A stretch of 25,845 nucleotides of DNA from a virus (IMGVR_UViG_3300003409_000018:7749-33593), one strand, 5' to 3'. Positions 3,767-25,354 are shown, counted from the first letter of the stretch. The notes: generated from the letters alone by a model not told the origin. Numbers and translations: made by a program.

Positions 3767-3830
3767 GGTATCTCCTAAAAAAGCGGTGTAATAAGCGCAG
3801 AAAAAGGGATAAAAAAGGGTAAGTAATAGT

Positions 3831-5816: not shown

Positions 5817-5819
5817 TTT

Positions 5820-6584: not shown

Positions 6585-6589
6585 GTAAG

Positions 6590-6597: not shown

Positions 6598-6603
6598 TGT
6601 AGC

Positions 6604-6611
6604 GATAAATA
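6604..6611 (+). promoter_or_regulatory. T4-late-type promoter box for gp14
   Basis: On the plus strand this reads GATAAATA. The predicted start is 6617, the A of the second possible gp14 ATG (MPRLSLYR). It mirrors the gp13 box at 6590-6597, so one 22-base palindromic stretch seems to drive both neck genes in opposite directions. Confidence 0.65.
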
Positions 6612-6616
6612 TGTTT

Positions 6617-8118: not shown

Positions 8119-8121
8119 ATT

Positions 8122-9552: not shown

Positions 9553-9563
9553 TACATAATAGT

Positions 9564-9953
9564 ATGCAAAAACGAACAGGTATACTATTCATTTCAAAAT
9601 CTAGTGGTAGAATTTTTCTAACTTGGGACGGTAAGTGGACTGTTCCAACTTTCTTTAGACAATCTTCAGTAATCGAAGACTCTAAAGATTTAATAGAAAA
9701 ATACAAAATCGAAAATGCTAAATTTGTCCCAATTGAATTATATACCAGCAAAGATAACGGATTTGAGTACGGAACTTACATTGTATTAACAGACAATGAC
9801 TTTTCATCAGACGACGGAACCTATTGTTGGGCTTCTTTAACCAACCTTCCTAAAAATGTACACATAGGTTTAAAGAATACGTTGTCAAATAAAATTACTC
9901 AAGTTAAAATTGATACAGTACTAGCAACAGGAAAGAGTTATGATATCTATTAG
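9564..9953 (+). CDS. Nudix-like protein lacking the Nudix box (129 aa)
   Basis: The overall order of segments suggests a Nudix-type fold: an opening strand GILFISKSSGRIFLTWDG, a KWTVPTF motif where Nudix enzymes have W-x-x-P-G-G, a central strand set (GFEYGTYIVLTDND), then YCWASLTNLPKNVHIGLKN near the C-terminus. The latter resembles the usual late WxxLxxLPxxxH region. The defining catalytic box (GxxxxxExxxxxxxREUxEExGU) is absent, so catalysis of nucleotide-diphosphate hydrolysis is unlikely. It may be a binding protein or a decayed relative. It lies 11 bases after gp15 with no clear ribosome binding site and overlaps the next gene by 14 bases. The fold call is tentative. Confidence 0.5.
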   Translation: MQKRTGILFISKSSGRIFLTWDGKWTVPTFFRQSSVIEDSKDLIEKYKIENAKFVPIELYTSKDNGFEYGTYIVLTDNDFSSDDGTYCWASLTNLPKNVHIGLKNTLSNKITQVKIDTVLATGKSYDIY

Positions 9954-10230
9954 AAATAGCGCATCTTATAGAAGAGATTGTCAGATCTATGAAAAATATG
10001 CCAACTTTGCTGTTGGTGAAGATAGAGAAAAGTTTATCAGACTATATGAACAATTCAAGTCTATGGTTGAACAATTTGATAAACAGTCATTAGAGCTAGG
10101 TAGTACACGCATGGCGTACGATTATCATAAAGATCTAAAGGATCGATTAATTTCACACAAAGCAAAAATGGACGAAATGGTTAAGACTGCACGACATATT
10201 GTTCAACAGATAAAAAAGAAGAAAATGTAG
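9940..10230 (+). CDS. Helical, probably coiled-coil protein of unknown function (96 aa)
   Basis: The sequence is almost entirely charged and helical (for example REKFIRLYEQFKSMVEQFDK and KDLKDRLISHKAKMDEMVK) and ends in a Lys-rich tail, QQIKKKKM. An AGGAAAGAG ribosome binding site sits three bases before the ATG at 9940, within the end of the Nudix-like gene, which supports this start. It closes the plus-strand neck unit. Its last 50 bases overlap the 3' end of hldD on the other strand. A small terminase subunit (gp16) was considered because of the helical content, but nothing specific supports that. Confidence 0.62.
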   Translation: MISIRNSASYRRDCQIYEKYANFAVGEDREKFIRLYEQFKSMVEQFDKQSLELGSTRMAYDYHKDLKDRLISHKAKMDEMVKTARHIVQQIKKKKM

Positions 10231-11065
10231 TAACACTTTCAAGTTTTCTCATGTCTGCTTTTGTAAAAATTTGATATTGCCCTTCTAGTTTTTTAGGAAA
10301 CGCAATTTCTTCTATTTCAGCATTATATTTAAACGCAATAATTTCAGCAACTTCTTTAAAACTAATAGCAGTACCAGTACCTAAGTTGTAAATTCCATTA
10401 AACTTTTCTTTACTACTTTCTACAACAGTTCTAACTACATCACCTACCCATACAAAATCTCTTTTGTAATTTTCACTACCTTCGAATATATAAATTTTTC
10501 TCTTGTCAATAGCTTGTCGAGTAAATTTGTGTATAGGGCTTGCTTGATCGCCTTTAAATTGTTCGCCATCGCCGTATACATTAAAGTATCTCCAACCTTG
10601 TATCTTAGCATCGGGCTTGACTTTTAAAATTTCTTCTACTTTTTTATCTATAATAGATTTGCTTTCAGCATACAACGACTTAGGATTAAGTTCAGCATCC
10701 TCAGCAAAATATAAATCAGTACCGTACACGCCTGCTGAACTAGCATAGCTAAACATGATATCATGTTCTAAGCAATCGTGTAGTAATTTAATAGAAGGTT
10801 TGATATTATAACTGTCAATTCTTCCTTTATTAGTTTCGGTTGTACTACTAATAGCACCTTGATGAAATACACATTTTACTTTTTTCCAGTCTTTGAAATT
10901 ACTGTAAAAGTCTCTCATCTCCATTAACACTTTATATTCACAACCGATAATGTTGTGAGCAGGCTTCATTTCATCAACTAAAATGATATCTTTAATACCC
11001 TGCTTATTCAGTTCTTTTACAATGTTAGAACCGATAAATCCTAGTGCCCCTGTTACTATAATCAT
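10181..11065 (-). CDS. hldD: ADP-L-glycero-D-manno-heptose 6-epimerase (HldD-like)
   Basis: This 294-residue short-chain dehydrogenase/epimerase fits HldD, which inverts C6 of ADP-D-glycero-D-manno-heptose to give the ADP-L-heptose used for the LPS inner core. The NADP-binding loop is TGALGFIGSN (5-14). Catalytic candidates are Ser109/110 in YASSAGVYG and the Tyr132-x3-Lys136 pair (YAESKS). HldD-type segments include HQGAISSTTE, GWRYFNVYGDGE, FEGSENYKRDFVWVGDV, IYNLGTGTAISF and a closing PKKLEGQYQIFTKADM. E. coli HldD is 310 residues. The C-terminal end is a little short and overlaps the convergent 96-residue gene by 50 bases. It is last in a four-gene cassette in which stop and start codons overlap (ATGA). 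The specific sugar assignment rests on overall similarity to HldD and on HldE in the same cassette. Confidence 0.85.
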   Translation of the reverse strand: MIIVTGALGFIGSNIVKELNKQGIKDIILVDEMKPAHNIIGCEYKVLMEMRDFYSNFKDWKKVKCVFHQGAISSTTETNKGRIDSYNIKPSIKLLHDCLEHDIMFSYASSAGVYGTDLYFAEDAELNPKSLYAESKSIIDKKVEEILKVKPDAKIQGWRYFNVYGDGEQFKGDQASPIHKFTRQAIDKRKIYIFEGSENYKRDFVWVGDVVRTVVESSKEKFNGIYNLGTGTAISFKEVAEIIAFKYNAEIEEIAFPKKLEGQYQIFTKADMRKLESVTTFSSFLSVEQYVVQS

Positions 11066-11355
11066 TTAAAAAAAACTTCCGAATTAATTGCTTTGTCATC
11101 GATCCAAAAATCGTAGTGTGGCTTCCCTGCTTTACACGATGTGTATTTAACACCAATCTCTTCTAAAAACTTCTGAGTATATTCTTCCCAATTTATACCA
11201 GAAACAGCACCTCTAGCAGTGTAGTAGTGTATTTCGTGTCCTTGATCATACAAGGCATTCATCTTATCTATTCTTGTCTGAATAGGTTTACTATTTTCGT
11301 AGTCGCTATTTTTAGTATCTAGGATCGTTCCATCAATGTCAACTATATAGATCAT
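11062..11355 (-). CDS. Short HAD-family phosphatase (97 aa)
   Basis: A minimal HAD hydrolase without a cap domain. The nucleophile motif is IVDIDGTILDT (Asp6, acid/base Asp8). Motif II is the Thr46 of YYTARG, motif III is Lys78 or Lys75 in KAGKPH, and the metal-binding acids are Asp86-Asp87 in FWIDDKA. Very short HAD proteins of this kind occur in bacterial capsule and LPS loci. In the ADP-heptose pathway a phosphatase (GmhB) must remove the 7-phosphate between the two HldE steps. This protein sits between hldD and the cupin and could fill that job, although it is about half the length of GmhB and not obviously its relative. It overlaps both neighbours by four bases. Confidence 0.75.
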   Translation of the reverse strand: MIYIVDIDGTILDTKNSDYENSKPIQTRIDKMNALYDQGHEIHYYTARGAVSGINWEEYTQKFLEEIGVKYTSCKAGKPHYDFWIDDKAINSEVFFK

Positions 11356-11726
11356 TTGTTTACTTGCTCTTGGCTATCACCAGGCATAATTCTATAATTG
11401 TCCTCTACACTATCAGCAGTGCTTACTTCAGTGATTGAACTCATTGGAGCAAGAGCAACTAATTGATGAGGTTGTAAAGGAGGGTTATGCCATGTGTCGC
11501 CTTCATTTAATTCTTTTTCGTATAATGTCGCAGTTTTAGTATCTAACCAACGTACATTAAATTTGCCTGAATTTACAAACCAGGTTTCTTCTTTTTCTTT
11601 ATGGAAGTGCATACTAAATTTAGCACCTTGTTTTTCAAATACCATAATTTTACCACAGTACTTATCATTGGTGGCCCAAATTAATTCGTATCCCCAACCT
11701 TTATCTACTTTGCCTTCTAGTCTCAT
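11352..11726 (-). CDS. Single-domain cupin, mannose-6-phosphate isomerase type II-like
   Basis: A 124-residue cupin. The start GWGYELIWATNDKYCGKI matches the opening of the PMI-type cupins (the C-terminal domain of ManC proteins). Cupin motif 1 is His40-x-His42 with a Glu at 46/47 and Gly54 (HFHKEKEETWFVNSG). Motif 2 includes Gly76 (EGDTWH) and His87 in PPLQPHQLVAL, so the metal-binding residues are present. The substrate is not certain: sugar phosphate isomerisation or epimerisation, or a regulatory role, are the known options for this group. It is third from the end of the hld cassette with four-base overlaps to both neighbours, which ties it to activated-sugar synthesis. Confidence 0.75.
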   Translation of the reverse strand: MRLEGKVDKGWGYELIWATNDKYCGKIMVFEKQGAKFSMHFHKEKEETWFVNSGKFNVRWLDTKTATLYEKELNEGDTWHNPPLQPHQLVALAPMSSITEVSTADSVEDNYRIMPGDSQEQVNK

Positions 11727-12979
11727 AGTGTTCCTTCCAGTATTTTAGTAGTACTGTAATCTTTCACTCTTGGAAATATTACTACTTTTGCTAAATCGTG
11801 TCCTACAGTTGTCTCTACTGTGTAATCACCGCCTTTTACTATTATATCTGGTTTTACAGATTTAATCAAGTCGTAAGGCGTATCTTCGGAAAAAATAATT
11901 ACTTCGTCTACAATAGCAAGACTTTCAAGCATTGTTTTTCTATCTTCTTGATTAAATTTTGGACGATTCTCACCCTTTAATCTTTTGACACTTTCGTCAC
12001 TGTTGATAGCAACAATTAGTTTATCGCCTTGTTGTTTCGCAAATTTCAATAGTTTCAAATGTCCTAAATGTAATACATCAAAACACCCATTTGTAAAAAC
12101 AATTTTTTCTTTAATATCAGATTCTTTTACATTGTAAGTACCCGGGCGACTAACTGCTACTCCTGCTACTTTGGAAGCAATTTCTAATGATTCATCTAAG
12201 GTGTTTCCATTAGTAAGTCCATATACCAAACCTGCTAGTGTACTATCTCCGGCACCGGTAATATCAAATACTTCTGTTTCAAAACTAGATTGACGCTTGA
12301 TGTGTCCATTTTTACCTACTAATATCATTCCGTCTGGACCTAGTGTTACTAACATATATTCAAAATCATATTTTTTACATGCTAGTATTGCTTTGCGAAT
12401 TAAATCATCGTAGTCGTCAAAGTCATTTACTAATTCTTTAAATTCTTTTTTGTTTGGTTTAACTAACCAGGCATGTTTATAATTATAAAGATCCTGTTTA
12501 GGATCGACAATAACCTTAATGTTTTTATCTCTTAGAATTTTAAATTGGTCGGAACAATTACCAATAGTTCCTTTGTTGTAATCACTTACAACTAGATACT
12601 CTGTTCCTTCTGCGCAGTAATTGTTAATATTGATAGGATTACTAAATCTTTTTTCATTATCAATTCTTGCGATTTGTTGATTGTTACAAATTATTCTTTT
12701 CTTTGTAATAGTACACGATTCTATGTCTTTTAAGTAACTAACATAAAGTTCGCTAAGGTATTCTGACAATGTAAAAGATTCACTGTCATTTCCTACAATG
12801 CCAACAGCATTAACTGAACATCCTAATGAATGTAAATTTAACGCAACGTTACACGCACCTCCCGGAGCGTATTCTGTTTTGATTGGTTTAATAACTGGAA
12901 CTGGTGCTTCTGGAGAAATTCTATCCGAAACACCGTATTCAAAAATATCTAAAATAAAGTCGCCGATAACTGTAATCAT
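11723..12979 (-). CDS. hldE: Bifunctional heptose-7-phosphate kinase/heptose-1-phosphate adenylyltransferase (HldE-like)
   Basis: Both HldE domains are present in one 418-residue chain. The kinase domain (about 1-285, ribokinase/PfkB type) has VIGDFILDIFEYG, ISPEAPVPVIKP, GGACNVALNLHSLG, SDYNKGTIG, DPKQDLYNY and the catalytic FDITGAGDST (GAGD at 242-245). The adenylyltransferase domain (about 290-418) has TNGCFDVLHLGHLK with the HxGH signature at 304-307, VAINSDESVKRLKGENRP, KGGDY and a late STTKI. The enzyme phosphorylates D-glycero-D-manno-heptose 7-phosphate at C1, and later joins AMP to heptose 1-phosphate to give ADP-heptose. E. coli HldE is 477 residues; the difference lies in kinase loops. 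It heads the cassette, 37 bases downstream of the giant structural gene, with no clear ribosome binding site or promoter. The cassette looks more AT-rich than its surroundings. Confidence 0.9.
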   Translation of the reverse strand: MITVIGDFILDIFEYGVSDRISPEAPVPVIKPIKTEYAPGGACNVALNLHSLGCSVNAVGIVGNDSESFTLSEYLSELYVSYLKDIESCTITKKRIICNNQQIARIDNEKRFSNPININNYCAEGTEYLVVSDYNKGTIGNCSDQFKILRDKNIKVIVDPKQDLYNYKHAWLVKPNKKEFKELVNDFDDYDDLIRKAILACKKYDFEYMLVTLGPDGMILVGKNGHIKRQSSFETEVFDITGAGDSTLAGLVYGLTNGNTLDESLEIASKVAGVAVSRPGTYNVKESDIKEKIVFTNGCFDVLHLGHLKLLKFAKQQGDKLIVAINSDESVKRLKGENRPKFNQEDRKTMLESLAIVDEVIIFSEDTPYDLIKSVKPDIIVKGGDYTVETTVGHDLAKVVIFPRVKDYSTTKILEGTL

Positions 12980-13017
12980 ACAAATAGTTATCTGCGTACT
13001 TTATTCTTAGAAGTAAA

Positions 13018-16000
13018 TTAGGCTTGCGCTTCACCCCATTTGAGGATGATATTTGCTGTAGTGTTTGTACCTGATGTCTTATACACATTGATAGCTAATA
13101 CATCAGGACCGTTCGGGAATGTACCCCTACCACCTAATGTAGTATTTGTAAGTTCTTTCAACTGTGCTAGATCTAGTTCTGATCGTTCGCCTGGTGTCGC
13201 AATGAATGAGAATACTGTTTCTCCTGGTTGAGCAAACGCAGGTTGGAAGAACGATGCTGAAACTGTGCCAGTTCCGGCTACCATTGTTCCTGAATATGAG
13301 TTGTTAAACGTTACACGATAATATTCAGTAGTTCCGAATGATTCTACATCAATAGTGTTAATGGTAGTGTTAGCAGGGAACGTTCCAGCTGATGTTGCTG
13401 TAATAGGAGTACCTAGTGTTGCTCCAGAAGCTTCTAAACTTGCTTTGTTTGCTAAGAAGAAACTTCGTCCTGTTAAATCTTCACCTCTTCTAAATGTCAC
13501 TGCGGTATTGATATCAACTGTATTACCGGTTACTCTATCACTTAAATCAACACGAGTAAGTGTTTGTCCGTTATAAGAATACCTGCCTGAAATTTGTGTT
13601 ACTCGAGTATTTGATGCGACTGTACCAGTTCCTGCGCTAATCAAAATATCTCCTACCGCTAGGCCAATGCCTTCAACTCCGCCACCGGTGCCGTTATTAA
13701 CTCTTAAGTATAATCTATCGCTGTTTCTAATTGGAAAGCCGTTTTGAACTGTAGCATTAATAGGACCTTGAGCTGTAATATTAACATTTGTTGATGCGGT
13801 CGAAGTTGTCCATGTAATACCACCACCTGGAGCAATCTGCGCAAAACTAGGTTGTCCTCCTTGTGCTAGTGAACTTAGTCCAGTCCAGCCAACACTACCA
13901 GGGTTAAGTGGATAGTTTTGAGGATTTAGAATTCCTTCAACAATAATACCACCTGTAATTTGATTTTGTGTACCGTCAACTCCGTCCGATGTTACCTCAA
14001 TACCTTGTAGTAATAATTGCGCACGGTTTAGTAGTTCACGCTCTCCTAAATCTCCAGGTACAGCGTTTGAAACACTAGGTGCTAGTCTAATCAAGAAAGC
14101 AGTTTGTTTTGAAGTACTAACTTCTAGACCAACTTCTGAGTATGAGAAAATATAACCACGATCTTCATCAAATCCGCCGTCTGTTAGGAACGCACTACCC
14201 CAGTGACTAATAAGTGGTGTTGTTGTATTTGTTAATAGAATAACACCAGTTCGTTCTTGGTGTATTGCCGCTGATCCTGCTGTATACACTCTATCGGCTC
14301 CTTGAGCAAACAAGTTATAAGTTGAGCCACGTGTAAGTCCTGTTAATCTATTTAAGGATGTATCTATACCAGTGTATTTCATAATTTCATTATCAATATA
14401 AATTGTACCCGATGTTGGATAACCTTCAACTGAATCAAGTTCTACAAAAGTTTGTGATACATCTACATCTGCGGTTAATCTAGATACTGGTCCTTCATTA
14501 GTAACTTCATAACGCACAGGCAAGTTACCTGAACGCATAAACGCTTCTGTATTAATGTTTGAGTTACGCATTCTGTGAGCAAATACAAAATTACCATCTG
14601 CTCCACGTACCATATAATCAATAAAACCAGCACCGTACCATGAATATTGAATACCAATCATCTGCATCTTAGTATGATCAATATTATATCCGCTTGGGCC
14701 ATGCCCGTCCATTCTATCTATATTAAAGTTTTCTTGTCTAACTCTTTTATCTTGTACTAAACTTGCTTTTGCTCCAGCAATACTTACAACTCCTCTAAAG
14801 TCAGGAGCAACATATAGTGTTGTTTGATTAGGAATACCTGTAACAACATGGGTCATTCCTTTAATAACAATTCTATCGCCTGCTTTTAGCTGATCTCTAA
14901 ATCTAGTACTTGTGCCTACTAAAATATTGCTGTCTGGATCAATTGCTATAGTTCCAGCAATTTGCTTTGTAGCTGTTCTTTGTACAACAGATAATTCTTT
15001 TCCATCATACTCCCAAAAAATACCGTTTTGATCATCAAAGATACCTGAACGAACGTATGCTCCATCCCATTCAAGAGTTGAAACTTGGCAAGTTGGTGAC
15101 AGTACTCCTCGTTTCGAACCTAATCTACTAGTAGCAATTACTGTAAAAATTCTTTCGCTTAACACATCGTCGACATCGTAGTCGCCATTATAACCACCAG
15201 TTTCACAACCGATAATTCTAACTTTTGCTCCTGGTTGTAGACCGTGATCATTATCGCCGAGCTCAACAGTAATAGTTGCGCCTACTTCGATGTGATCAGC
15301 ATTGATATCTAAAATATCATAACTTGGGGCAAATAGCGCACCAGTTGTGTACATAATACCTTTACCTGACTGGTAACGAATATATTTCTTACTTTGACGA
15401 ATTGCTTGCGCACCGTATTGAGGGCCACCTGTGCCTAGCTGTACACCACCGTCAAATGGTCTGTGTACAAAGAAGCTGTCCGGTCTTGTGTATACATTGC
15501 CATCAATATTATCGTTTGATGTAGTAATCGATCCTGGTGCTCTAGCATTAAATCTTAATGTATTTGCTGAAGGAATTTGTGTTGCGCTAAAACTACCAGC
15601 AACAAGATTGTGATTGTTTGTTCCGTCATCTGATACCACAGAAATAATAAAGTTGCCTCCTGGCATAATACCATGGGGAATAGTAAAGTCTGCTTCAATT
15701 GTTGCTAGTGCTTCATACCTTAATAATGTTCCTTCTGGAACAGTATCTGCTGTGTTTTCACTGATCAATACTGTACTGTAAAGATCGAACGGTGTTCCTG
15801 CTACTGCTTGGCTAAAGGAATCAGTAATTACACTGAAAATTCCTCCAGAAGGTCCATCAGTTGTGTTAACATTAATAATCAAATCGTTGGCTGGTGTAGT
15901 ACCACCTAAAATATCACCCGTAACAAGTATTTTGTTTCCTGGTTGATATAATGAACCAGCAGTTGTAGGTGTTACATTATAAAGTCCTTGATTTCTCTGA

Positions 16001-19000
16001 ACTTCAAATACTGCTCCTGAACCTTGTGATGGTGCCATTTGTCCTAAGATGTTAACATAGGTTTGTGATCCGTTTGCTAAGCCACTTGTTTGGAATGTAT
16101 CAATTTCACCAGTTCCGCCTGCTGTACCTGTAAAATCATAACCGCTAATAAATCCAGTACCACCTGCTGTACCAGCTAGATCAACTACAGTTACTATTCC
16201 GCCAGTACCACCGGCAACACCTGTTGCGTTTACTGATTGAATAACACCTGCTCCATCAACACTAGTTACTTCCATAACTAGATCGTTAGCAGGACTAGTG
16301 CCATCTAAACTTGTACCTAGAATACGTACTTCGTCGCCGCCGTTATATCCGCCGCCGCCATTTGTAACATTAACAAAATATTGTCCTGATGCTTGGTCAA
16401 CGTTTTTAGTTACTTCAAATACAGCACTTGTTCCTGTGCCTGTTGTAGAATCTTGTGATAACCCTGTATAGGTCTTTGAAATTTGATCAACAGTAAATGT
16501 AGCATCGTTAGCAGGTGATGCTGCATCTAAATTTGTACCAGCAACAGTTAGTGTTTCGCCAGGAGCATATCCGTCTCCTGCGTCAACAACTAACAATGAT
16601 TGGTAAGTATCGGCTAATTTAATTAATCCAAATGTTGCTAAAGTTCCACTTGCTGATCCACTCGATGGTAAATCGCTATAAACTTTTGCTACTTCAGTGA
16701 CTGTAATAGTCAAATCTTCCGAAGGAGATGTTCCACCTAAATCAGTGCCTGAAATAGTAATAGTATCATTCAACGCATATCCGTCACCAATTGTACTATC
16801 TGCTAGTGTTGCTTGTGTAACTGAAGTATAAGTTTCTCCAACTTTATCAATGTCCCACAACGCACCGGAACCTGTTCCTGATGTAGAAGTTTGTGCTACA
16901 TCTTGGTAACTATCTCTTACGCCTTCAACTGTGATAGTAACATCGTTGGCTGGAGTTGCTCCGTTATTAAAAATGTTACCAGGAATAACAATAGTATCTA
17001 AAGCCGCAAATCCTGTACCTGGATTGTTTAGAGTGACAGAATATGATGTACTACCCCTTTGGACGTCAAATGTTGCAGCTGAACCTGTTCCTGTTGTTGT
17101 ATAAATCGTGTCGTTAACACCAACAATAGTTTGTGAAATGATTGGATTAGCCTCGCCTCGCCATATTACGCTGTCGATGTTATCAGAACTGTCACTACCA
17201 ACAGATACTACAGTGATGTATAGATCATTAACTGGTGTAGTTCCTCCAATATCACTTCCTAAAATCTTAATAGTATCACCAGGTTCGAAACCAGCACCAG
17301 CTGTGTTAACACTAACAGTTACATAGGTAGTTTCAGCACCTCTAGTAACATTAAACGTTGCGTCATCGGTTGGTGTTCCAACAACGTTAGTACCTGTAAT
17401 TCCTGTATAAGTTTGAACATCACCAGTTAGGTCGCCTGTTAAAGGATCACTAAGTGTAATATCATTACCTACAATATTTTCTACTAGAATAAGATTTCCT
17501 GATCCGTCATCTAAACCTAAGTTAGGAACAATACCTGTTGGATTAGAAACCGTTAACACTGTTGTACCAGCAGTATAAGATCCTACCAGACCCGGTGAAG
17601 TAACAATTCCACCTGAGCCGACTACACCAGTTACCTGTGCGCCATCTGGAATAGAATTTCCAGAAATAGGTGCGCCAACTTCTGGAGCAATACCTGTAAA
17701 TGCTAATCTACTTGTACCTGCCGCAGTTTCAAATACTGTAGTCAAATCGCCTGCTGTACCATTCGAAACAACAGTAAACGATGGGTTTCCTATTGATGCT
17801 CCTGTATAAAATCCGCCTTGACGTATTTGAGTGAATCCAGTTTCAATTCTATCTCCACTAAAAGTACCAACTTTACCTTTGGCAAAATATGTAAATGTGT
17901 TATTAGTAGGTATTGTAATAATAATAAACGAGCCTTCGCCTCTGGCAGCGCCGGCAACTGATTGCTCTAGTCCAAGTACAGTAATAGGCTGTCCTTCACT
18001 TAGACCATGTGCTCCAACTGTAGTTACTGTTATAATACTTGAACCAATGTTATCTGTTGTAACAGATGCGTCAGATGTAACCGTTGAAATGTTTAATTCT
18101 GTTCCAGGAATTTCATAGATGCTTGGATAACCTCTTTGCGTAGCAATAGCACTCCACTTAGTAGGCTGTAAGCCGTACTCAAAGTCAGCATCGAGCATTG
18201 ACATTGGCGGCGCAATACGCATACGTTCAATCGCATCAGTACCAAAGTCAAAAGGTCTAGTTCTAATTTCTGGTTCTTCAACAAATATCTGAATAGAGTC
18301 AGTTACGTCTTGATCAGATGTATCGGCATACAGATGAATAACTGTAACAGCATCACTTCTTTGCTTAAAAGCAGGATAGTCTGGATCATTACCTGTAAAT
18401 GAATCTTCATACATTTCACGTGTAACAACACCACCTAATGTATTAGTTGAGAAGTTGTATATTACTGCGTTCTTTGATGTATTTGTAATTAATAAAAGAT
18501 CTTTACTATAATAGTGTCCGATTAATTTAATTTTTGTATATCCAGCTTCAACAACACTAGGTAAAGATGATAATCCGTTTCTGATAACACTTATTAAAAC
18601 TTGTGTATCTGCTTCAACAATTTCTGCTGTACCGCTAACATACGTTAACGCTTCGTCGATAACTTGATCCTGCGTAGTATTAAGTTTTGATTCGTATTCA
18701 ACGTTTGTCAAAATGTAATCTTGAATTACATTACTAATATATCTATGAGTTTCTGTTTCTGGTTGTCGATCGCCATCTACTTGGGCTGTTTCTTTATCCC
18801 AGTAATGTCTAGCAACATAAACAATTTTTTCGTTGCCGCCGTATCTCAAATCATATAGATAGGCATCTAATACATAACCTAAATCTCTTTCACATTTAGG
18901 TTGATTATAGGTATAATTAGCAAATGGATATGTCGATAAAACCGGTGTTGGTAAGTTATCTAAGCCGTTTTCGATGACATCATAAATGATACCAAATAGT

Positions 19001-19590
19001 TCTGATACTCTAGTCGATACACCTGCTTCAGCATACGGTCCAGTTATTTCTTGAGGAGTGTATGTTGAATCACCAGGCGATTGAAGACTAGAATAAGCAT
19101 TACCAGTTATGATATTTGAATTTACAATGCCTTCAAGCCACTGATATGTATAAATTTCTGCTAATCTATCTCCGTCAATTTGAGGAGTATCATCAATCCA
19201 ATAAAAACTTGCGATGTAACTAGTATTCCAGTTACCTCCCCATCGTAAGTCTTTGTAAATTGCTTCTAAAACGTATCCTAAATCTCTTTCACATTTGTCT
19301 TGATTATATGAATAGTTGTTAAAACCAGGAGCACCAGCAACAACCCTGTCTTCAATGTATAACAGAGTTTCTAATTTTAAAAATTCAATGTTTTCATTAA
19401 AAAGTCTTGCTCCATTAGGAAACAAACTTGCTTGTGTGTCAGTGGTGACTCTTGAATTGATATAAGCAATAGCTTCTGCTTTTAAAAAATCAACATTATT
19501 TTCTAAAGATGTATATGCGGCCGGGTATTTGTTACCGTTGTAACTTATTCCTGGTCTCCAAATATAATCTTTAACTTGCCTTTTTGCCAT
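13018..19590 (-). CDS. Giant virion structural protein, probably fibre or baseplate associated (2190 aa)
   Basis: A very long protein of the type seen among marine T4-like virion proteins. The N-terminal part repeats short helices (FLKAEAIAYINSRV near 35, FLKLETLLYIEDRV near 70) and carries two copies of a CERDLGYVL-A-DLR-GGN module (about residues 95-121 and 226-252), separated by related sequence with DGDR. A middle part (about residues 765-1240) holds at least six copies of a beta-rich repeat with core GDTI-I-G-LGGTSPANDL. A GTAGGTG-type linker occurs near 1120-1165. The C-terminal 800 residues include RQSKKYIRYQSGKGIMYTTG, a conserved-looking stretch, and end in a domain closing IILKWGEAQA. 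GGAG lies about 9 bases before the ATG, inside the end of the 199-residue gene. It probably forms part of the tail fibre or baseplate; the exact gp number is not clear. Confidence 0.78.
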   Translation of the reverse strand: MAKRQVKDYIWRPGISYNGNKYPAAYTSLENNVDFLKAEAIAYINSRVTTDTQASLFPNGARLFNENIEFLKLETLLYIEDRVVAGAPGFNNYSYNQDKCERDLGYVLEAIYKDLRWGGNWNTSYIASFYWIDDTPQIDGDRLAEIYTYQWLEGIVNSNIITGNAYSSLQSPGDSTYTPQEITGPYAEAGVSTRVSELFGIIYDVIENGLDNLPTPVLSTYPFANYTYNQPKCERDLGYVLDAYLYDLRYGGNEKIVYVARHYWDKETAQVDGDRQPETETHRYISNVIQDYILTNVEYESKLNTTQDQVIDEALTYVSGTAEIVEADTQVLISVIRNGLSSLPSVVEAGYTKIKLIGHYYSKDLLLITNTSKNAVIYNFSTNTLGGVVTREMYEDSFTGNDPDYPAFKQRSDAVTVIHLYADTSDQDVTDSIQIFVEEPEIRTRPFDFGTDAIERMRIAPPMSMLDADFEYGLQPTKWSAIATQRGYPSIYEIPGTELNISTVTSDASVTTDNIGSSIITVTTVGAHGLSEGQPITVLGLEQSVAGAARGEGSFIIITIPTNNTFTYFAKGKVGTFSGDRIETGFTQIRQGGFYTGASIGNPSFTVVSNGTAGDLTTVFETAAGTSRLAFTGIAPEVGAPISGNSIPDGAQVTGVVGSGGIVTSPGLVGSYTAGTTVLTVSNPTGIVPNLGLDDGSGNLILVENIVGNDITLSDPLTGDLTGDVQTYTGITGTNVVGTPTDDATFNVTRGAETTYVTVSVNTAGAGFEPGDTIKILGSDIGGTTPVNDLYITVVSVGSDSSDNIDSVIWRGEANPIISQTIVGVNDTIYTTTGTGSAATFDVQRGSTSYSVTLNNPGTGFAALDTIVIPGNIFNNGATPANDVTITVEGVRDSYQDVAQTSTSGTGSGALWDIDKVGETYTSVTQATLADSTIGDGYALNDTITISGTDLGGTSPSEDLTITVTEVAKVYSDLPSSGSASGTLATFGLIKLADTYQSLLVVDAGDGYAPGETLTVAGTNLDAASPANDATFTVDQISKTYTGLSQDSTTGTGTSAVFEVTKNVDQASGQYFVNVTNGGGGYNGGDEVRILGTSLDGTSPANDLVMEVTSVDGAGVIQSVNATGVAGGTGGIVTVVDLAGTAGGTGFISGYDFTGTAGGTGEIDTFQTSGLANGSQTYVNILGQMAPSQGSGAVFEVQRNQGLYNVTPTTAGSLYQPGNKILVTGDILGGTTPANDLIINVNTTDGPSGGIFSVITDSFSQAVAGTPFDLYSTVLISENTADTVPEGTLLRYEALATIEADFTIPHGIMPGGNFIISVVSDDGTNNHNLVAGSFSATQIPSANTLRFNARAPGSITTSNDNIDGNVYTRPDSFFVHRPFDGGVQLGTGGPQYGAQAIRQSKKYIRYQSGKGIMYTTGALFAPSYDILDINADHIEVGATITVELGDNDHGLQPGAKVRIIGCETGGYNGDYDVDDVLSERIFTVIATSRLGSKRGVLSPTCQVSTLEWDGAYVRSGIFDDQNGIFWEYDGKELSVVQRTATKQIAGTIAIDPDSNILVGTSTRFRDQLKAGDRIVIKGMTHVVTGIPNQTTLYVAPDFRGVVSIAGAKASLVQDKRVRQENFNIDRMDGHGPSGYNIDHTKMQMIGIQYSWYGAGFIDYMVRGADGNFVFAHRMRNSNINTEAFMRSGNLPVRYEVTNEGPVSRLTADVDVSQTFVELDSVEGYPTSGTIYIDNEIMKYTGIDTSLNRLTGLTRGSTYNLFAQGADRVYTAGSAAIHQERTGVILLTNTTTPLISHWGSAFLTDGGFDEDRGYIFSYSEVGLEVSTSKQTAFLIRLAPSVSNAVPGDLGERELLNRAQLLLQGIEVTSDGVDGTQNQITGGIIVEGILNPQNYPLNPGSVGWTGLSSLAQGGQPSFAQIAPGGGITWTTSTASTNVNITAQGPINATVQNGFPIRNSDRLYLRVNNGTGGGVEGIGLAVGDILISAGTGTVASNTRVTQISGRYSYNGQTLTRVDLSDRVTGNTVDINTAVTFRRGEDLTGRSFFLANKASLEASGATLGTPITATSAGTFPANTTINTIDVESFGTTEYYRVTFNNSYSGTMVAGTGTVSASFFQPAFAQPGETVFSFIATPGERSELDLAQLKELTNTTLGGRGTFPNGPDVLAINVYKTSGTNTTANIILKWGEAQA
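15875..17295 (-). repeat. Six diverged copies of a beta-rich repeat inside the giant structural gene
   Basis: The translated core follows G-[FY]-x3-[DE]-[TE]-[ILV]-x-[IV]-x-G, then a SPANDL-like element and an ITV strand. Cores lie near 17200-17292, 16930-17010, 16705-16783, 16495-16573, 16275-16350 and 15880-15950. The spacing is about 210-270 bases, apart from the last gap of about 400 bases, which contains three GTAGGTG-type linkers. The copies have diverged at DNA level, so they are old duplications. Confidence 0.7.
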
Positions 19591-19593
19591 GTA

Positions 19594-20193
19594 TTATGCT
19601 CCGAATACTACTGCGTATGCGATAGAGTTATTATCGACGTAATCTTTTCTTGCTACCTGATTGCCCTGTGTAGGCGATTCACCAATTACTGGGTTTTCAG
19701 TAAATGATATTGAGCCTGCTATAACACTAGCGTTAAAGTTGATATTTGCTCTAGAAGCAGTTAAACTTCCCGGTGAGCCTTGATCGTTTTCAACTGTAAC
19801 ACTTGTAGCTCTCAGTGTTCCTGGATTACTTGTACCAATATTTACGTTATCAATAGAGCCCCTCTGGGCACTTGTGATTTCAACTGTTCCAGCGATAACA
19901 CTAATTCGATTAGTTCCATTAGATCTTAATCGAGCATCACCATCTACTATTAAATCTGAAAGAGTTCCTAATGTTTGTAAAGAAGAACCAGTCACTGTCG
20001 GCGATAAAACTGTACCGCCTGATGTAAACAACGGATTGTTATTAATGTTGATAGAGTTTGTATTAACTTGTGGGGCCGAGATGCTGTTCGTTAATGTGAG
20101 AGACGAGCCAGCAATGTTGCCGTTGCTATCAACAACAAAATTTGGGCTTTCAAACCCTGTTTTACTTTTAAATCTTTGAAATCCGACTGCCAT
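19594..20193 (-). CDS. Fibre-like virion protein (199 aa)
   Basis: The N-terminus MAVGFQRFKSKTGFESPNF followed by VVDSNGNIAGSSLTL is a pattern I associate with small structural proteins of marine T4-like phages. The middle is made of short beta repeats rich in Ser, Thr and Asn (INNNPLFTSGGTVLSPTVTG, ATSVTVENDQGSPGSLTASR). The end GNQVARKDYVDNNSIAYAVV resembles the KxYVD motif found near the C-terminus of many tail-fibre proteins. The precise role is unknown, but fibre or collar is likely. It has its own late box (20213-20220) and AGGAT ribosome binding site, and the giant structural gene follows three bases after its stop, so the two are probably co-expressed. Confidence 0.7.
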   Translation of the reverse strand: MAVGFQRFKSKTGFESPNFVVDSNGNIAGSSLTLTNSISAPQVNTNSININNNPLFTSGGTVLSPTVTGSSLQTLGTLSDLIVDGDARLRSNGTNRISVIAGTVEITSAQRGSIDNVNIGTSNPGTLRATSVTVENDQGSPGSLTASRANINFNASVIAGSISFTENPVIGESPTQGNQVARKDYVDNNSIAYAVVFGA

Positions 20194-20212
20194 TTTTTAT
20201 CCTGTTCCAGTG

Positions 20213-20220
20213 TATTTATG
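20213..20220 (-). promoter_or_regulatory. T4-late-type promoter box for the 199-residue fibre-like gene
   Basis: On the minus strand this reads CATAAATA. A start near 20207 gives a 14-base leader holding the AGGAT ribosome binding site for the ATG at 20193. It likely also drives the giant structural gene and possibly the hld cassette beyond, since no terminator is seen between them. Confidence 0.6.
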
Positions 20221-20235
20221 TTAGTAGAAATTGGG

Positions 20236-21807
20236 TTACATTCTTCCAACTACTACTTCAATTACTCCGACTTCTTCATCGCTGTTATAATCTTCTAAAG
20301 CCTTACCTATAACGCTTCCAAGTTTTGGATCTGCGCTAGAAGTTGCTACGCCAGGTATGTCACTAGTTACTAATAAATCACCTTTTTCGATATTGCCTAT
20401 AACATTACAAGGAACCCTTCCTTGTAAAGCAACATCACAAACAAATTTGTCATTATGTTCAGTATTCATTATGAACGCCGGATTTGTCGACACAACACCT
20501 GCTACTTTTCTATTTTCGTATCCCGATGCTTGTGTTACTTCGTATTCTCCTCCAAACATTAATACCATTCCTGGAGGATAAGCCGCGTCTGCTGAATATT
20601 TCTCAGCCAAGTCAGCCCATCTCGCACTTAGCGCAGTAGCATTCAATGTACTAGTATCTACATCAATAGTAACACCGGAGTTACCATACAATAAGTTCCC
20701 ACTAATTGAAGATAGTCCACTAGCCATTGTAACTGGATAAATGCCTGAGGTGGTTGGATTAACAATGATAGTGCTTGCTGTTCCACCACCGCCGCCGCCG
20801 CCACCTGTAGAGCTAATTGTAACAGTGTCTGTTGCAGCATCAGTAGTTAGAGTAATATTTGCGCCCGCTACTAAATTTAATTGATCTTGTTCTCTGTCAG
20901 CAATTAAACTTCCTTGGCCTTGTACTGCTACTACACCGAAACTAGGTCCTGAGTTTGATGTAACTGTAGAAACCGTAGATTCGCCTCCACCACCTGAAGA
21001 GTTAATTGTTATTTCTTTCGTAGTAGGATCAGTTGTAATAGTTACATTACTGCCGCTTCTTAAAACAAGTACATCGTTCGGCTGTGTAGGCAATACATCA
21101 AATTCACCTGGTACAGTTATTCTTCCAAAGTAATTTAAGTCTTCGCCGTCAATTAAAGTTCCTTGCGGTAAATTTAAATTTCCATCTGTTAAAGATAAAG
21201 GTGTTGTACCAAAGAAAACTGTATCTGTTATGTATAAATTATTCCAACCCGAATTAGTTGATCCTAGATTGTATGTATCAGTAGTGCTAGGAACAATATG
21301 ATTGTTTACACTGGTAAGAACAATACTAGAACCTCCAACACTTCCTGATCCCGAACCTGGATCAGGATCTGGTTGTGTGTCAGGTACAATAAATGATTTA
21401 GATATTGGAGGTACTGGAGTATTAATAGTTCCGCTATATGCTACATGATAAATTGCTTTTGCGCCATTAAACGCATCAATTTTTGTTGAAAGTCTAACAC
21501 TAACATAACTGTCATTTACTGTAGCAGTAACATCAACAAGTTCATCATCGATAGCAACTCTTCCGTAGACCACACAGTTTGCTTCGTTGGGTCTTCCGAC
21601 AACTAAGACTTGTAATACTTCTTTCTTGTTTGAATCAACTTCAACTGTGATAGTATATGTTGCGCTAGCAAAATCGCCTACAAACCATCTGTCAATTTCA
21701 GTTTCTTTAAAGACAGATGTCCATGGCCCTTTATATAAAAATTGGCCACCGTTTTTAAACAGCAACGTGTTATGTACACCACGTGAAAAGAATGTTGGAA
21801 AACTCAT
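20236..21807 (-). CDS. Tail fibre-like protein with a Gly-rich hinge and an ADLAE-type C-terminal domain (523 aa)
   Basis: The domains in order are as follows. Residues 1-135 form a folded N-terminal region with no match I know. Then comes a linker, PDTQPDPDPGSGSGSVGGSS (142-161). Next is a T4-fibre-like motif around HIVPSTTDTYNLGSTNSGW (170-188). Two copies of a beta repeat (GSNVTITTDPTTKEITINSS at 252-271 and GANITLTTDAATDTVTISST at 315-334) are each followed by a Gly run; the second run has eight Gly. The C-terminal domain (about 390-523) starts LSARWADLAEKYSADAAYPP and continues with VAGVVSTNPAFIMN. This C-terminal type is widespread in marine phage fibres and resembles the Peptidase_G2-like/intramolecular chaperone group; whether it cleaves itself is not known. 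It is probably a trimeric fibre that contacts the host. An AAAGGA ribosome binding site lies 10 bases before the ATG. Confidence 0.78.
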   Translation of the reverse strand: MSFPTFFSRGVHNTLLFKNGGQFLYKGPWTSVFKETEIDRWFVGDFASATYTITVEVDSNKKEVLQVLVVGRPNEANCVVYGRVAIDDELVDVTATVNDSYVSVRLSTKIDAFNGAKAIYHVAYSGTINTPVPPISKSFIVPDTQPDPDPGSGSGSVGGSSIVLTSVNNHIVPSTTDTYNLGSTNSGWNNLYITDTVFFGTTPLSLTDGNLNLPQGTLIDGEDLNYFGRITVPGEFDVLPTQPNDVLVLRSGSNVTITTDPTTKEITINSSGGGGESTVSTVTSNSGPSFGVVAVQGQGSLIADREQDQLNLVAGANITLTTDAATDTVTISSTGGGGGGGGTASTIIVNPTTSGIYPVTMASGLSSISGNLLYGNSGVTIDVDTSTLNATALSARWADLAEKYSADAAYPPGMVLMFGGEYEVTQASGYENRKVAGVVSTNPAFIMNTEHNDKFVCDVALQGRVPCNVIGNIEKGDLLVTSDIPGVATSSADPKLGSVIGKALEDYNSDEEVGVIEVVVGRM

Positions 21808-21832
21808 CTACAATAAATCCTTTATTATAGTG

Positions 21833-21840
21833 TATTTAAC
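21833..21840 (-). promoter_or_regulatory. T4-late-type promoter box for the 523-residue fibre gene
   Basis: On the minus strand this reads GTTAAATA. The start near 21827 gives a 20-base leader with AAAGGA in front of the ATG at 21807. It lies just downstream of the terminator at 21854-21876, so fibre transcription is separated from the carbamoyltransferase operon. Confidence 0.55.
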
Positions 21841-21853
21841 CGTTTTGTAGAAA

Positions 21854-21876
21854 ATAAAAACCCCCGTAAAGGGGGC
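21854..21876 (-). terminator. Intrinsic terminator of the GT9-carbamoyltransferase operon
   Basis: On the minus strand a CCCCC/GGGGG stem (21871-21875 with 21861-21865) with a five-base loop is followed by TTTTTATTTT. It begins six bases after the carbamoyltransferase stop. In the plus direction the same stem is followed by only four T, so a weaker two-way action is possible, but no plus-strand gene ends here. Confidence 0.85.
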
Positions 21877-21881
21877 TTTTA

Positions 21882-23687
21882 CTAGTTCTTAACACTGATT
21901 AATTTACCGTACTCGGGCAAATACAAGTATTCAATCTCGCTTCGAACTAATGTTTCAACAGCATCATCTAGTGTTTCAACTAGTGGATCACCACCTAAGT
22001 TAAAACTAGTGTTGAAAATAATTGGAATGCCTGTAGCATCATTGAAAGCCTTGATCAGATCATAATAGTGTGGGTTCTGATCGCGTTTGACTGTCTGAAT
22101 TCTACAGGTTCCATCTACGTGAATAATTGAAGGAATCTTTTCCTCAATTCCGGGCTGACAATTGACAGCGTACATCATATGAGGAGTTTCATCCATACCG
22201 CGTAGATCAAACCATTCGTGGACATATTCATGTAGAATAGATCCAGCAAATGGACGGAAGTATTCTCTATGCTTGACCTTGTTGACATGATCTTTGCCAT
22301 CAGGATCAGTTGGATCATAAAGAATACTTCTATTACCAAGGGCTCGTGGACCATTCTCGGAGCGTCCTTGGAAAATCGTTACAATATTTCTATCTTTTAG
22401 TAATGCCACTACATCTTCATTTGTAGCGTCTTTAACTTCAGCGTTATATTTTTCAACAACAGTATTAATATCACTATCACTGTAATCATATTTAGGACCT
22501 AAATATAACGTATCGAGTTTTTGAATTTCAGTGCTAGCATCCTGGGCATGCCAAAACATCAGTGCCGCGCCCATTGCTGTTCCAGCATCGTTAGAAACTG
22601 GTTCGACGTAAATTTCAATGCCTTCGTCTTTTAGTGCTTCAAGATAATGATAGTTAGCAACACAGTTAAGACCATAGCCGCCACTGATAACAACCTTTTT
22701 CTTCCCGCTCATTTTAACTGCTTTGCGAATTAATTCTACTACTTGGTCTTGTGTTTGTGTTTGAACAGCATACGCTAAGTCTCTACGACTCTGTAATAGT
22801 GTTACGTCCGAAGTAGGATCTTCTGGCCACTCATCTAATGCGTCATATAATCCATGATTAACACGACTGCTCGCCGGATACATAGGTATGATTACATTTC
22901 TATCACAGAATGATTGCTTACCATTTTTTGTAAACAACGACGGAATTTGATCATTAGGTTTACCGTATGGAAATAGTCCCATTGTTTTGCCAGCTTCGAT
23001 TGAACTCCAACCGCAATACTCAGTAACGCCTTCATATGTTTTAACAATACCTGCTCTATCTGTAATCCACGCTTCGTGCGTTTCGCCAGTTTCTCCAAAT
23101 TGATCACTTGAAAAGTCCGGAACATATTGAGCATTAATTGGTTCTTTAGTTCCGTAATGCTTATACAACGTTTTAAACTCTGACGGATAACCGCAATCAA
23201 CAATAGATTCAACTTCCCAAACCCAAATAGGGCTCCGGTCATATGACATTTGAATGAAAGTTCCTGCTCCATCAACAATAAGACTTACAGCATCGTCAAA
23301 CCCAGAACGATAAAAAGCACAAGCAGAATGTAACTTATGATGCATATAACTCAAATCAACTACTTGAGGATGATTATGAAGATCAACACCTTTGTTTTCG
23401 ATTAGTCCTAGTTTACGTGCCAGTCCAGTATACACATCATCGCCTGTATAATCAACTCGGCCTGCAGTATCGCTAAGTGATTGTGTATGTGCTACAATAA
23501 GATAATCAATTTTATCTGTGTACTCTAAAATTTTAACCATCGAAGCATAAGGGCCACCGTCGTATTTTTGTCTTGTTAATCGTTCTTCCTCAATAGAAAA
23601 TACAATTTCTCCATCTTTTAACAGACATACTCCACTGTTGTGTCCCCTAGCAATAGCGGCTATCCAGCCTGTTTTTTTATTACTCAT
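21882..23687 (-). CDS. O-carbamoyltransferase of the NodU/CmcH/TobZ family
   Basis: This full-length, 601-residue enzyme transfers a carbamoyl group from carbamoyl phosphate, through carbamoyl-adenylate, to a sugar hydroxyl. The N-terminal Kae1-like domain starts GWIAAIARGHNSGVCLLKDG with FSIEEERLTRQK. The metal-binding His are at 116, 117 and 120 (YMHHKLHSACAFYRSGFDDA). Nucleotide-binding Gly-rich segments are VDGAG and ISGGYGLNCVANY. The C-terminal domain has QGRSENGPRALGNRSILYDP (GPRALG at 446-451, the carbamoyl-phosphate site), REYFRPFAGSIL and FNTSFNLGGDPLVETLDDAV. Known relatives include WapO, which carbamoylates heptose in the P. aeruginosa LPS core, and NodU, which acts on Nod factors. 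The ATG overlaps the GT9 stop as ATGA, and a terminator follows. The acceptor is inferred to be a heptose because of the hld genes and the GT9 partner. Carbamoyltransferases are known from some marine T4-like phages, without an assigned role. Confidence 0.92.
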   Translation of the reverse strand: MSNKKTGWIAAIARGHNSGVCLLKDGEIVFSIEEERLTRQKYDGGPYASMVKILEYTDKIDYLIVAHTQSLSDTAGRVDYTGDDVYTGLARKLGLIENKGVDLHNHPQVVDLSYMHHKLHSACAFYRSGFDDAVSLIVDGAGTFIQMSYDRSPIWVWEVESIVDCGYPSEFKTLYKHYGTKEPINAQYVPDFSSDQFGETGETHEAWITDRAGIVKTYEGVTEYCGWSSIEAGKTMGLFPYGKPNDQIPSLFTKNGKQSFCDRNVIIPMYPASSRVNHGLYDALDEWPEDPTSDVTLLQSRRDLAYAVQTQTQDQVVELIRKAVKMSGKKKVVISGGYGLNCVANYHYLEALKDEGIEIYVEPVSNDAGTAMGAALMFWHAQDASTEIQKLDTLYLGPKYDYSDSDINTVVEKYNAEVKDATNEDVVALLKDRNIVTIFQGRSENGPRALGNRSILYDPTDPDGKDHVNKVKHREYFRPFAGSILHEYVHEWFDLRGMDETPHMMYAVNCQPGIEEKIPSIIHVDGTCRIQTVKRDQNPHYYDLIKAFNDATGIPIIFNTSFNLGGDPLVETLDDAVETLVRSEIEYLYLPEYGKLISVKN

Positions 23688-24625
23688 TTTTGTTTTTTCC
23701 CCATAACAGTATTAATAACGTAGTCTTGTAATTCAGGTGTCATTGTCATAAGTCCTTCGTGTGCTCTGTCCACACGTTCGTCCATTGTAATTCTAATTGG
23801 TGAATACTCTCTTTCATCCTGTCCGAAATCAATAATACTAATACCAGGTGTATCAGGATAAGAAACATTTTCTGGATATGTTGACCCTAGTACAACAGTT
23901 GCTGGTGTATCTACAGTATAAGCAAGATGTTGTCCAAGACTATCACATCCTAAAAACTTATCAGCATACTTGATTACGGCGGCCCATTGTCTAATGTTTA
24001 AACCTTCAGGCGATGCTACATCATCTTTATATTTTTCACCTGATAAATCTAATTTAAACTCACTCATTAAAATTACAGCAAAGTTTTTATCTTGTAGTTT
24101 TCTAATCAATTGTTTAACATCTTTATATTCAATACTTCTAGATGTTGGATCTAAGAAAGTTTCGTCAACGTATTGAATTCCTCTACCAAAGGGCTGAAGT
24201 ACGATTGCTTTTTCTTTTTTAAGTTTTTCTTTTACTTCGGTGACCATTTGCCTACCGATAACTAATTCTTCTTTGCTTAGTTTTAGTGTAGGCTTAGGTA
24301 AATCTCTTACACCTTTTTTATTGATTTCAATATCAAATGCTTGTGCTAAACTACATTTTTGATTATAGTATTCCCACACGCGATAAGGCTCAGTGTTGAA
24401 GATATCTCTGTTTCGAATTTTATCTTCAAATAAGTTTTTGTGCATTACATCATATGTGCGTTTATCTAGTGTAGGATGCCCTTTAAAAATTTCACTACCA
24501 CCTTCACATACAATAATAAAGTCTTTATCACCCGACTCCTGTTCATATTTTTCTAATGCGGGTACGGAGCACAGCATACGTCCTGCGCCTCCATTTAGAA
24601 AAAATGCTTTTGATCTCTGTTCCAT
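23684..24625 (-). CDS. GT9-family glycosyltransferase (ADP-heptose:LPS heptosyltransferase-like)
   Basis: The 313-residue protein has the GT-B layout of GT9. The N-terminal half begins FFLNGGAGRMLCSVPALEKY, in place of the usual GD-x-x-x-x-x-P start. It continues with FIIVCEGGSEIFKGHP and an aromatic stretch (YRVWEYYNQK). The C-terminal half has IVLQPFGRGIQYVDETF (the usual donor-side start) and ADKFLGCDSLGQHLAYTVDT (Asp228, Ser229, His233), then PATVVLGSTYPENVSYP. The latter is the GT9 nucleotide-sugar site, DSGxxHLAxAxxxPxxxxxGpT. GT9 enzymes add heptose from ADP-heptose to LPS inner core. The similarity is distant, so donor and acceptor are inferred. GGAG lies five bases before the ATG. 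It heads a two-gene operon with the carbamoyltransferase, under a host-type promoter. Confidence 0.8.
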   Translation of the reverse strand: MEQRSKAFFLNGGAGRMLCSVPALEKYEQESGDKDFIIVCEGGSEIFKGHPTLDKRTYDVMHKNLFEDKIRNRDIFNTEPYRVWEYYNQKCSLAQAFDIEINKKGVRDLPKPTLKLSKEELVIGRQMVTEVKEKLKKEKAIVLQPFGRGIQYVDETFLDPTSRSIEYKDVKQLIRKLQDKNFAVILMSEFKLDLSGEKYKDDVASPEGLNIRQWAAVIKYADKFLGCDSLGQHLAYTVDTPATVVLGSTYPENVSYPDTPGISIIDFGQDEREYSPIRITMDERVDRAHEGLMTMTPELQDYVINTVMGKKQK

Positions 24626-24703: not shown

Positions 24704-25354
24704 TTATAGTAGTACTGGAATATCTGTATAGAAAGGAATTTTCCAATGTGGAATATCAGCATATCTTGTTGGGATAGATTCAACCCATTCCATATGCTCT
24801 GTTAATCGTCTACGATCTTCGTCTGTATAATCATTTTCTGGATTATCAAGGCTTGATTGGATAGATTGAGCCAATATTACAAAGTTCGCTAATGTTTCTT
24901 CTCTAGTATTAGCATGTTGTCTGTATTGAGGGCCGCTATATGTTCCATCTGTTGGATTATATTTCACTGAACCAAAATAACAAACTTGTCCGATAACACC
25001 AGCAGTATCATAATGATATTCAAATTGGAATGTTTCACCTTCTGCGTCAGTTAGTGTTTCATTAATATCTTCAATTTCTTCGTGTGAATAATTGTGTGTT
25101 AGATATGCTGCAACTACTAGATTATCTTCTGCTTTCATCTTAACAAAATAATGTCCTTCTTCGATTTGGACATCAAAGTTAAGTTCTTCTTCTGTTTCGC
25201 CAGTAGTTTCAACATTTCTTACGTTGTGTGTGCCGTTTTCAATACACAGGCACAACCATCTTGGTCCATCATACAAACAACTAACAGTATTGTTATCGTT
25301 TGTAGTATTTAGATACGGACCATCTGGCAATGTAAATGTAAATGCTTTTTTCAT
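24704..25354 (-). CDS. Unknown acidic protein (216 aa)
   Basis: I recognise no characterised family. The protein starts MKKAFTFTLPDGPYLNTT and is acidic and beta-rich in the first two thirds (EEELNFDVQIEEGHYFVKMK, GETFQFEYHYDTAGVIGQ). The last third is helical (REETLANFVILAQSIQSSLD, DRRRLTEHMEWVESIP) and ends YADIPHWKIPFYTDIPVLL. The terminal PHWKIPF-like end gives an impression of a tail assembly or virion-associated protein of marine T4-like phages, but this is only recollection. It has a late box (25371-25378) and a GAGGAT ribosome binding site, so late expression is expected. The long hairpin at 24643-24686 follows it. Confidence 0.65.
   Translation of the reverse strand: MKKAFTFTLPDGPYLNTTNDNNTVSCLYDGPRWLCLCIENGTHNVRNVETTGETEEELNFDVQIEEGHYFVKMKAEDNLVVAAYLTHNYSHEEIEDINETLTDAEGETFQFEYHYDTAGVIGQVCYFGSVKYNPTDGTYSGPQYRQHANTREETLANFVILAQSIQSSLDNPENDYTDEDRRRLTEHMEWVESIPTRYADIPHWKIPFYTDIPVLL

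Follow-up and report, generated by a model that had tools for sequence, protein, structure and literature searches.

The window analysed here, 25,845 nucleotides of viral DNA that form the final 25.8 kb of a 33.6-kb virus record, encodes a GT9-fold glycosyltransferase (GT) paired with a NodU/TobZ-type O-carbamoyltransferase (CT), together with a module for ADP-heptose synthesis, and in phages with both halves these genes probably constitute a joint pathway of donor synthesis, transfer and carbamoylation. The full reading, on which we are evenly divided between belief and doubt, is that ADP-heptose is made, attached to the phage's own fibres or adhesins and carbamoylated. The phage would supply its own ADP-heptose through the HldE kinase/adenylyltransferase, a mini-HAD phosphatase, a cupin and the HldD epimerase; the phage-specific transferase with the GT9 fold would then link this sugar to fibre or adhesin proteins of the phage itself, most likely to those encoded alongside (the fibre proteins, or the proteins termed c0 and c6), and carbamoylation of the sugar would fall to the NodU/TobZ-type enzyme. 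A fibre tip decorated in this manner might differ in receptor binding, stability or recognition.

The source is a T4-like myovirus with sheath, gp13-type and gp15-type genes, and a terminase-like protein lies at 1702-3300 of L332, the T4-like myovirus record. No match to known phages was found at the DNA level. The six genes singled out by the original prediction are intact ORFs, all on the minus strand and where it had placed them, and both ORF positions and family matches bear out its description of two gene groups flanking fibre genes (Table 1). The order on the minus strand is c0, c6, GT, CT, two fib1-family genes, the 2190-aa fibre, HldE, cupin, mini-HAD and HldD, such that three fibre-type genes separate GT-CT from the donor group. 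Gaps from c0 to HldD are at most 78 nt, and 4-nt overlaps join HldE/cupin, cupin/mini-HAD, mini-HAD/HldD and GT/CT. The fib1 family was found near CT in 154 loci. Because a terminator-like hairpin follows CT, there may be two separate transcripts, c0-c6-GT-CT on the one hand and fibres plus donor synthesis on the other; T4 late promoters (TATAAATA) were not found within the window. The 1120-aa tail sheath, much longer than T4 gp18, is a long variant common to many marine relatives.

Table 1. Features of the window (positions counted from its first nucleotide).
Feature	Position	Strand	Matches and remarks
Tail sheath, 1120 aa	360-3722	-	
Small HNH-like ORF	3831-4166	+	opposite strand; overlaps end of the 4096-4695 gene
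HldD-type ADP-glyceromanno-heptose 6-epimerase, 294 aa	10181-11065	-	TIGR02197 E=2.9e-79; PDB 1eq2 E=1.6e-59; T4-GC 308 counterparts in cyanophages
Mini-HAD phosphatase, 97 aa, EcbF/BcbF-like; candidate heptose-bisphosphate phosphatase	11062-11355	-	PHROG_1238 E=4e-26; TIGR01689 E=2.2e-10; PDB 9iqw E=4.5e-12
Small cupin, 124 aa; candidate sugar-phosphate isomerase	11352-11726	-	PF07883 E=4.4e-7; PHROG_7851
HldE, fused heptose-7-P kinase/heptose-1-P adenylyltransferase, 418 aa	11723-12979	-	NF008454 E=6.3e-113; TIGR02198; TIGR02199
Fibre/virion structural protein, 2190 aa	13018-19590	-	PHROG_5838 (virion structural) E=1.4e-246; PHROG_4527 (short tail fibre) E=2.3e-16
Fibre-type protein, family fib1	19594-20193	-	clusters with the 20236-21807 protein
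Fibre-type protein, family fib1	20236-21807	-	PHROG_6427 E=3e-15; PHROG_19602 (tail fibre) E=1.3e-4
Terminator-like hairpin directly after CT	21861-21874	-	CCCCTTTACGGGGG then TTTTTATTTT; consensus match only
NodU/TobZ-type O-carbamoyltransferase (CT), 601 aa	21882-23687	-	PF16861 E=2.2e-59; PF02543 E=3e-28; PHROG_1601 E=1.2e-168; PDB 7xb6, GdmN, TobZ
GT9-fold glycosyltransferase (GT), 313 aa; candidate heptosyltransferase	23684-24625	-	PHROG_8954 E=2.1e-137; AF2 model; PDB fold matches
c6 protein, 216 aa, upstream of GT	24704-25354	-	PHROG_9740; conserved GT partner
c0 protein, cysteine/glycine-rich, incomplete at contig end; candidate acceptor	25379-25843	-	PHROG_4205 family

Matches to families and structures identify HldE, HldD and CT securely. 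Domain models of both the kinase and the adenylyltransferase match HldE, which displays the motifs DITGAGDS (kinase) and LHLGH (NT), and the best PDB match of HldD is an HldD structure (1eq2); the scores of both proteins fall below the strict NCBIfam equivalog cut-offs (266.5 of 274.6 bits for HldD). The predicted ADP-heptose synthesis set is thus present as HldE, HldD, cupin and mini-HAD, but GmhA was not found in the window, nor by its profile TIGR00441 in any of 38 related records, and a mini-HAD occupies the place of the classical GmhB phosphatase. A GmhB-type phosphatase (NF006506, E=2.5e-40) resides in the same operon of many relatives, commonly in the order HldE-HldD-cupin-GmhB. GmhB accompanies the cupin in 57 loci and mini-HAD in 15, none having both and 43 neither. 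Since the two phosphatase types never co-occur beside the cupin, the mini-HAD presumably replaces GmhB, and the presence of GmhB-type genes in so many related operons, never with mini-HAD, ties the module to heptose.

Sugar isomerases of the cupin type exist, and some are among the weak matches of the cupin profile, which scores similarly against D-lyxose ketol-isomerase (2y0o, E=5.8e-6) and oxalate decarboxylase; our guess is therefore that the cupin may stand in for GmhA as isomerase, or else that the host may supply GmhA. In P-TIM68 a transketolase-like gene adjoins the kinase, which fits sedoheptulose-7-phosphate as the start of the pathway. In one contig of 160 kb that has neither HldE nor HldD (G005; L025:12797-13162) the cupin directly follows CT, which suggests that it may serve the GT-CT product and not donor synthesis alone. 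Two public names appear wrong, "phosphoheptose isomerase" for the mini-HAD family PHROG_1238 and "cysteine dioxygenase" for the cupin family PHROG_7851, and both have propagated through cyanophage records.

The structure of GT, predicted with AlphaFold (AF2) from an alignment of the window and contig sequences, has a pLDDT of 94.3. PDB fold matches ranked 1 to 30 are all of the GT9 type, comprising Veillonella parvula GT9, TibC, WaaC and WaaF, and include TibC bound to ADP-heptose. The fold confirms the heptosyltransferase-like GT9 assignment despite a weak Pfam score (PF01075, 20.8 bits against a gathering cut-off of 22); a PDB sequence search with the GT profile gave nothing useful. Alignments with WaaC and WaaF agree at the nucleotide-binding end of the protein. 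The N-terminus, in contrast, reads G-[AL]-G-R where WaaC and WaaF have G-D, and Asp13 of these enzymes, the catalytic base in WaaC, corresponds to Arg16 of GT. This arginine is invariant in 56 relatives and is shared by distant Vibrio and Aeromonas homologues. The equivalent residue of TibC, Asp110, was named a candidate base (PMC4358343). The structure prediction proposed beforehand yields an ADP-heptosyltransferase-type fold that is missing the Asp base of WaaC and TibC. Because the usual catalytic Asp is Arg, heptose transfer is not assured, and GT appears either to combine the GT9 fold with a changed chemistry or, conceivably, to be inactive. ADP-heptose is its presumed donor. Only one Cys, C227, is nearly invariant (52-56 relatives).

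Tail genes surround the distant GT homologues (25-28%) in Vibrio SBP1 and Aeromonas HJ05; in SBP1 (L331) a fibre is encoded at 1261-3801 and a tail protein at 5748-8525, and neither CT nor heptose genes are annotated near the homologue in either phage. A genome scan for cellular relatives returned no more than 10 loci, each from a metagenome bin and the bins belonging to unrelated phyla; as these have the look of binned viral contigs, we recognise no host or cellular analogue of GT. In L193, L196, L070 and some 20 further loci another GT copy lies downstream of CT (GT-CT-GT), a hint at two successive transfers or a pair of acceptors.

CT comprises Carbam_trans_N and Carbam_trans_C domains with HHxxH and GPRALG motifs, and the agreement of PF16861, PF02543, PHROG_1601 and PDB matches establishes the NodU-type O-carbamoyltransferase that had been predicted. 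Its context is fibre genes, not LPS-core genes. We infer the position of the carbamoyl group on the sugar. Between GT and CT there is often a protein that looks like an SGNH hydrolase by motif reading, with no family match (L047, L200, L208 at 9085-9981, L219 and about 50 other loci), and that might acylate or deacylate the sugar.

The GT-CT pair occurs in hundreds of marine contigs. In a set of about 245 loci, mostly from IMG/VR, CT adjoins GT or lies at most five genes from it in all 174 testable loci, and the two are thus inseparable. Their linkage with the donor module is looser. Contigs with the window-type cupin have a full or near-full CT match in 25 of 27 cases. Among T4-like contigs of at least 40 kb chosen by tail sheath alone, eight have CT and HldE, seven have neither and none has a single one (n=15; Fisher p=1.6e-4, or about 2e-3 once near-duplicates are merged, the contigs being related and not fully independent); "neither" here means without the GT-linked kind of CT, distant CT types in three of these contigs being left uncounted. 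In four cyanophages the genes for GT, CT, NT, kinase, HAD, cupin and HldD stand together as a single block: S-CAM1 and P-SSM2 have them in unbroken succession and in this order, and in S-SSM7 and Sf-FS3 a few additional genes interrupt the block. A convincing HldE, either fused or as two genes, was identified in 27 of 43 GT-CT contigs. Eight of the 16 others exceed 100 kb and some are fragments; G010 keeps HldD and the cupin, and G005 only the cupin. Conversely, S-SM2, P-TIM68, S-T4 and Sf-CH8 carry the donor module without GT-CT; in P-TIM68 and Sf-CH8 the module is located among other glycosyltransferases or sugar genes.

Donor module and GT-CT are thus linked but separable, a pattern consistent with the host being able, at times, to provide the donor. 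The eight large contigs without convincing HldE reveal that the module is not strictly required, and where donor genes are missing, either the host would provide the donor or GT would use a different sugar. The original prediction held that the two groups belong together, and named random, independent carriage as evidence to the contrary. The single cyanophage block, the inseparable GT-CT pair, the ADP-heptosyltransferase fold and above-chance co-occurrence uphold the idea, with the reservation of those eight large contigs. Separate pathways, in which GT-CT uses another host nucleotide sugar, the ADP-heptose module serves something else and both accumulate in a hypervariable host-recognition island, would account for the same eight contigs, for the cyanophages with donor modules alone and for the Arg-for-Asp departure of the GT active site from GT9. 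We consider this unlikely, if the strongest of the alternatives, given the contiguous block in divergent cyanophages, the co-occurrence counts of both contig sets and the fact that the fold matches of GT are ADP-heptose enzymes.

The c0 family, in one or more copies, and c6 lie at most five genes from GT in 168 and 165 of the 174 loci, respectively. A c0 protein has a median of 31 Cys (9.7%), 22 alignment columns are at least 80% Cys, and one member matches Pfam Gly_rich_2. All nine records with a BLAST match to c0, among 50,697 public phage records, also have GT, and a scan led by c0 recovered GT and CT in 64 of 80 loci, 11 of the other 16 ending at contig edges. The predicted structure of c0 (pLDDT 61) was too poor for interpretation or fold search. 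Proteins of the c0 type occur in two to three tandem copies (the window gene; L002:8680-11073; L003:9172-11972; L004:9852-12718; about 150 other loci), and cyanophage members contain 25-36 Cys, a composition very unusual for phage structural-type genes. Among them are PSSM2_304 and PSSM2_306 of P-SSM2 and SSSM7_114-116 of S-SSM7; the GT of P-SSM2 is PSSM2_307.

The position of GT-CT beside c0, c6 and fibres, and of distant GT homologues among tail genes, points, as gene-neighbourhood evidence, to the virion as the target and makes c0, c6 and the fibres candidate acceptors. The virion is favoured over the host surface, distinctly if far from overwhelmingly, and decoration of the phage's own fibres, offered originally as a second option, emerges better supported than LPS modification. 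A more specific and, as a whole, unlikely form of this reading holds that heptose is placed on cysteine/glycine-rich, adhesin-like virion proteins by the Arg-for-Asp GT9-fold enzyme, possibly S-linked to cysteine, and then carbamoylated, in a system widespread in marine T4-like phages whose donor-less members take ADP-heptose from the host.

A host-surface reading, whose LPS form was the first option of the original prediction, has phage ADP-heptose attached to the LPS or a different envelope glycan of the host and the sugar then carbamoylated, which would block superinfection or free progeny. Donor, transferase and carbamoyltransferase do match Pseudomonas LPS-core chemistry (putative WapO on HepII; PMC8005017), surveys of pelagimyophages and cyanophages read similar host-recognition-island genes as LPS genes (PMC7029224; PMC3037559), and in P-TIM68 and Sf-CH8 the donor module has sugar-gene neighbours. 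However, GT-CT lies in the fibre region and away from LPS-type clusters, GT lacks the Asp of WaaC/WaaF, and the LPS of the marine Synechococcus strains WH8102 and CC9311 is without heptose and Kdo (PMC4515613). For cyanophage members this last point argues against alteration of an existing heptose core, not against the addition of a new sugar; the phage group of the window is probably not one of cyanophages, because psbA and psbD (photosystem reaction-centre genes) are absent from all 43 related contigs. Together, these points weigh against a P. aeruginosa-like LPS-core/WapO reading, and a host-surface target seems improbable. Modification of DNA, with CT acting on 5-hydroxymethylcytosine (5hmC) and GT glycosylating DNA, was rejected as very improbable on specificity residues and gene context: a phage-derived NodU-type enzyme of the same superfamily carbamoylates 5hmC (PMC8670742), but it belongs to another subfamily, with C and T at the positions of G451 and R453, invariant in 47 CT relatives (residues were compared since the CT tree, with long branches, was too poorly resolved at depth to place this enzyme), thymidylate synthase and dCMP hydroxymethylase are not next to GT-CT, and the MetaGPA study reports unmodified contigs in which carbamoyltransferases adjoin glycosyltransferases (PMC8670742).

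If decoration of the virion is correct, abundant ocean viruses would equip their own receptor-binding parts with a sugar unused in the examined Synechococcus LPS, some cyanophage "LPS genes" and a cysteine-rich protein family would gain a function, and a mass tag would be predicted that is directly searchable in virion proteins of cultured phages. Elements of the system have been recorded before. Sullivan et al. (2010) listed a carbamoyltransferase and noted the co-occurrence of T4-GC 304, 305, 307 and 308, read there as LPS genes that may be "functionally linked" (PMC3037559), and the pelagimyophage survey placed rfaE and glycosyltransferases in a host-recognition island, proposing O-chain modification (PMC7029224). 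The open literature, most subscription papers falling outside the search, was found to describe neither a joined ADP-heptose/GT9/carbamoyl system, nor the fold of GT, nor its connection with cysteine-rich proteins. The claim that no described phage system joins these enzymes needs qualification: no paper found in this search states the pathway, but public records have long contained the genes side by side, and their co-occurrence is published (PMC3037559).

The closest known counterpart is the cyanophage T4-GC 302-308 block (P-SSM2, S-SSM7, S-CAM1, S-CAM3, Sf-FS3), which presents the same seven functions next to fibre genes, with identities to the window of 44-54% for GT and 50-66% for CT. It is a single unit with HldE split in two genes, NT first, whereas the window has a fused HldE and a system divided into two halves, one on each side of the fibre genes; in both, the mini-HAD appears to replace GmhB. 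The bacterial ADP-heptose pathway (GmhA, HldE, GmhB, HldD) has HldE and HldD in common with the phage set, and GmhB with many relatives, but the phage set lacks GmhA and includes an extra cupin. GT resembles WaaC and WaaF in its fold and its C-terminal D-[ST]-G-x-x-H type nucleotide motif, and differs by low identity (11-15% in fold alignments), the Asp13 to Arg exchange and the absence of LPS gene context. TibC and AAH (BAHT) are similar in their GT9-like fold, adjacent adhesin gene, ADP-heptose donor (for BAHT) and protein acceptor (proposed for the phage GT); unlike these, the 313-aa phage GT has neither the N-terminal beta-barrel nor the four-Cys iron finger, and Arg16 replaces Asp110. The MetaGPA 5hmC carbamoyltransferase shares superfamily and phage origin with CT, and is distinguished by its C/T specificity residues and thymidylate synthase-type neighbours, of which the window has none. 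With NodU, TobZ and WapO, CT shares the full N- and C-terminal domain architecture and the GPRALGNRS motif, and it differs from them as a distinct phage group tied to GT.
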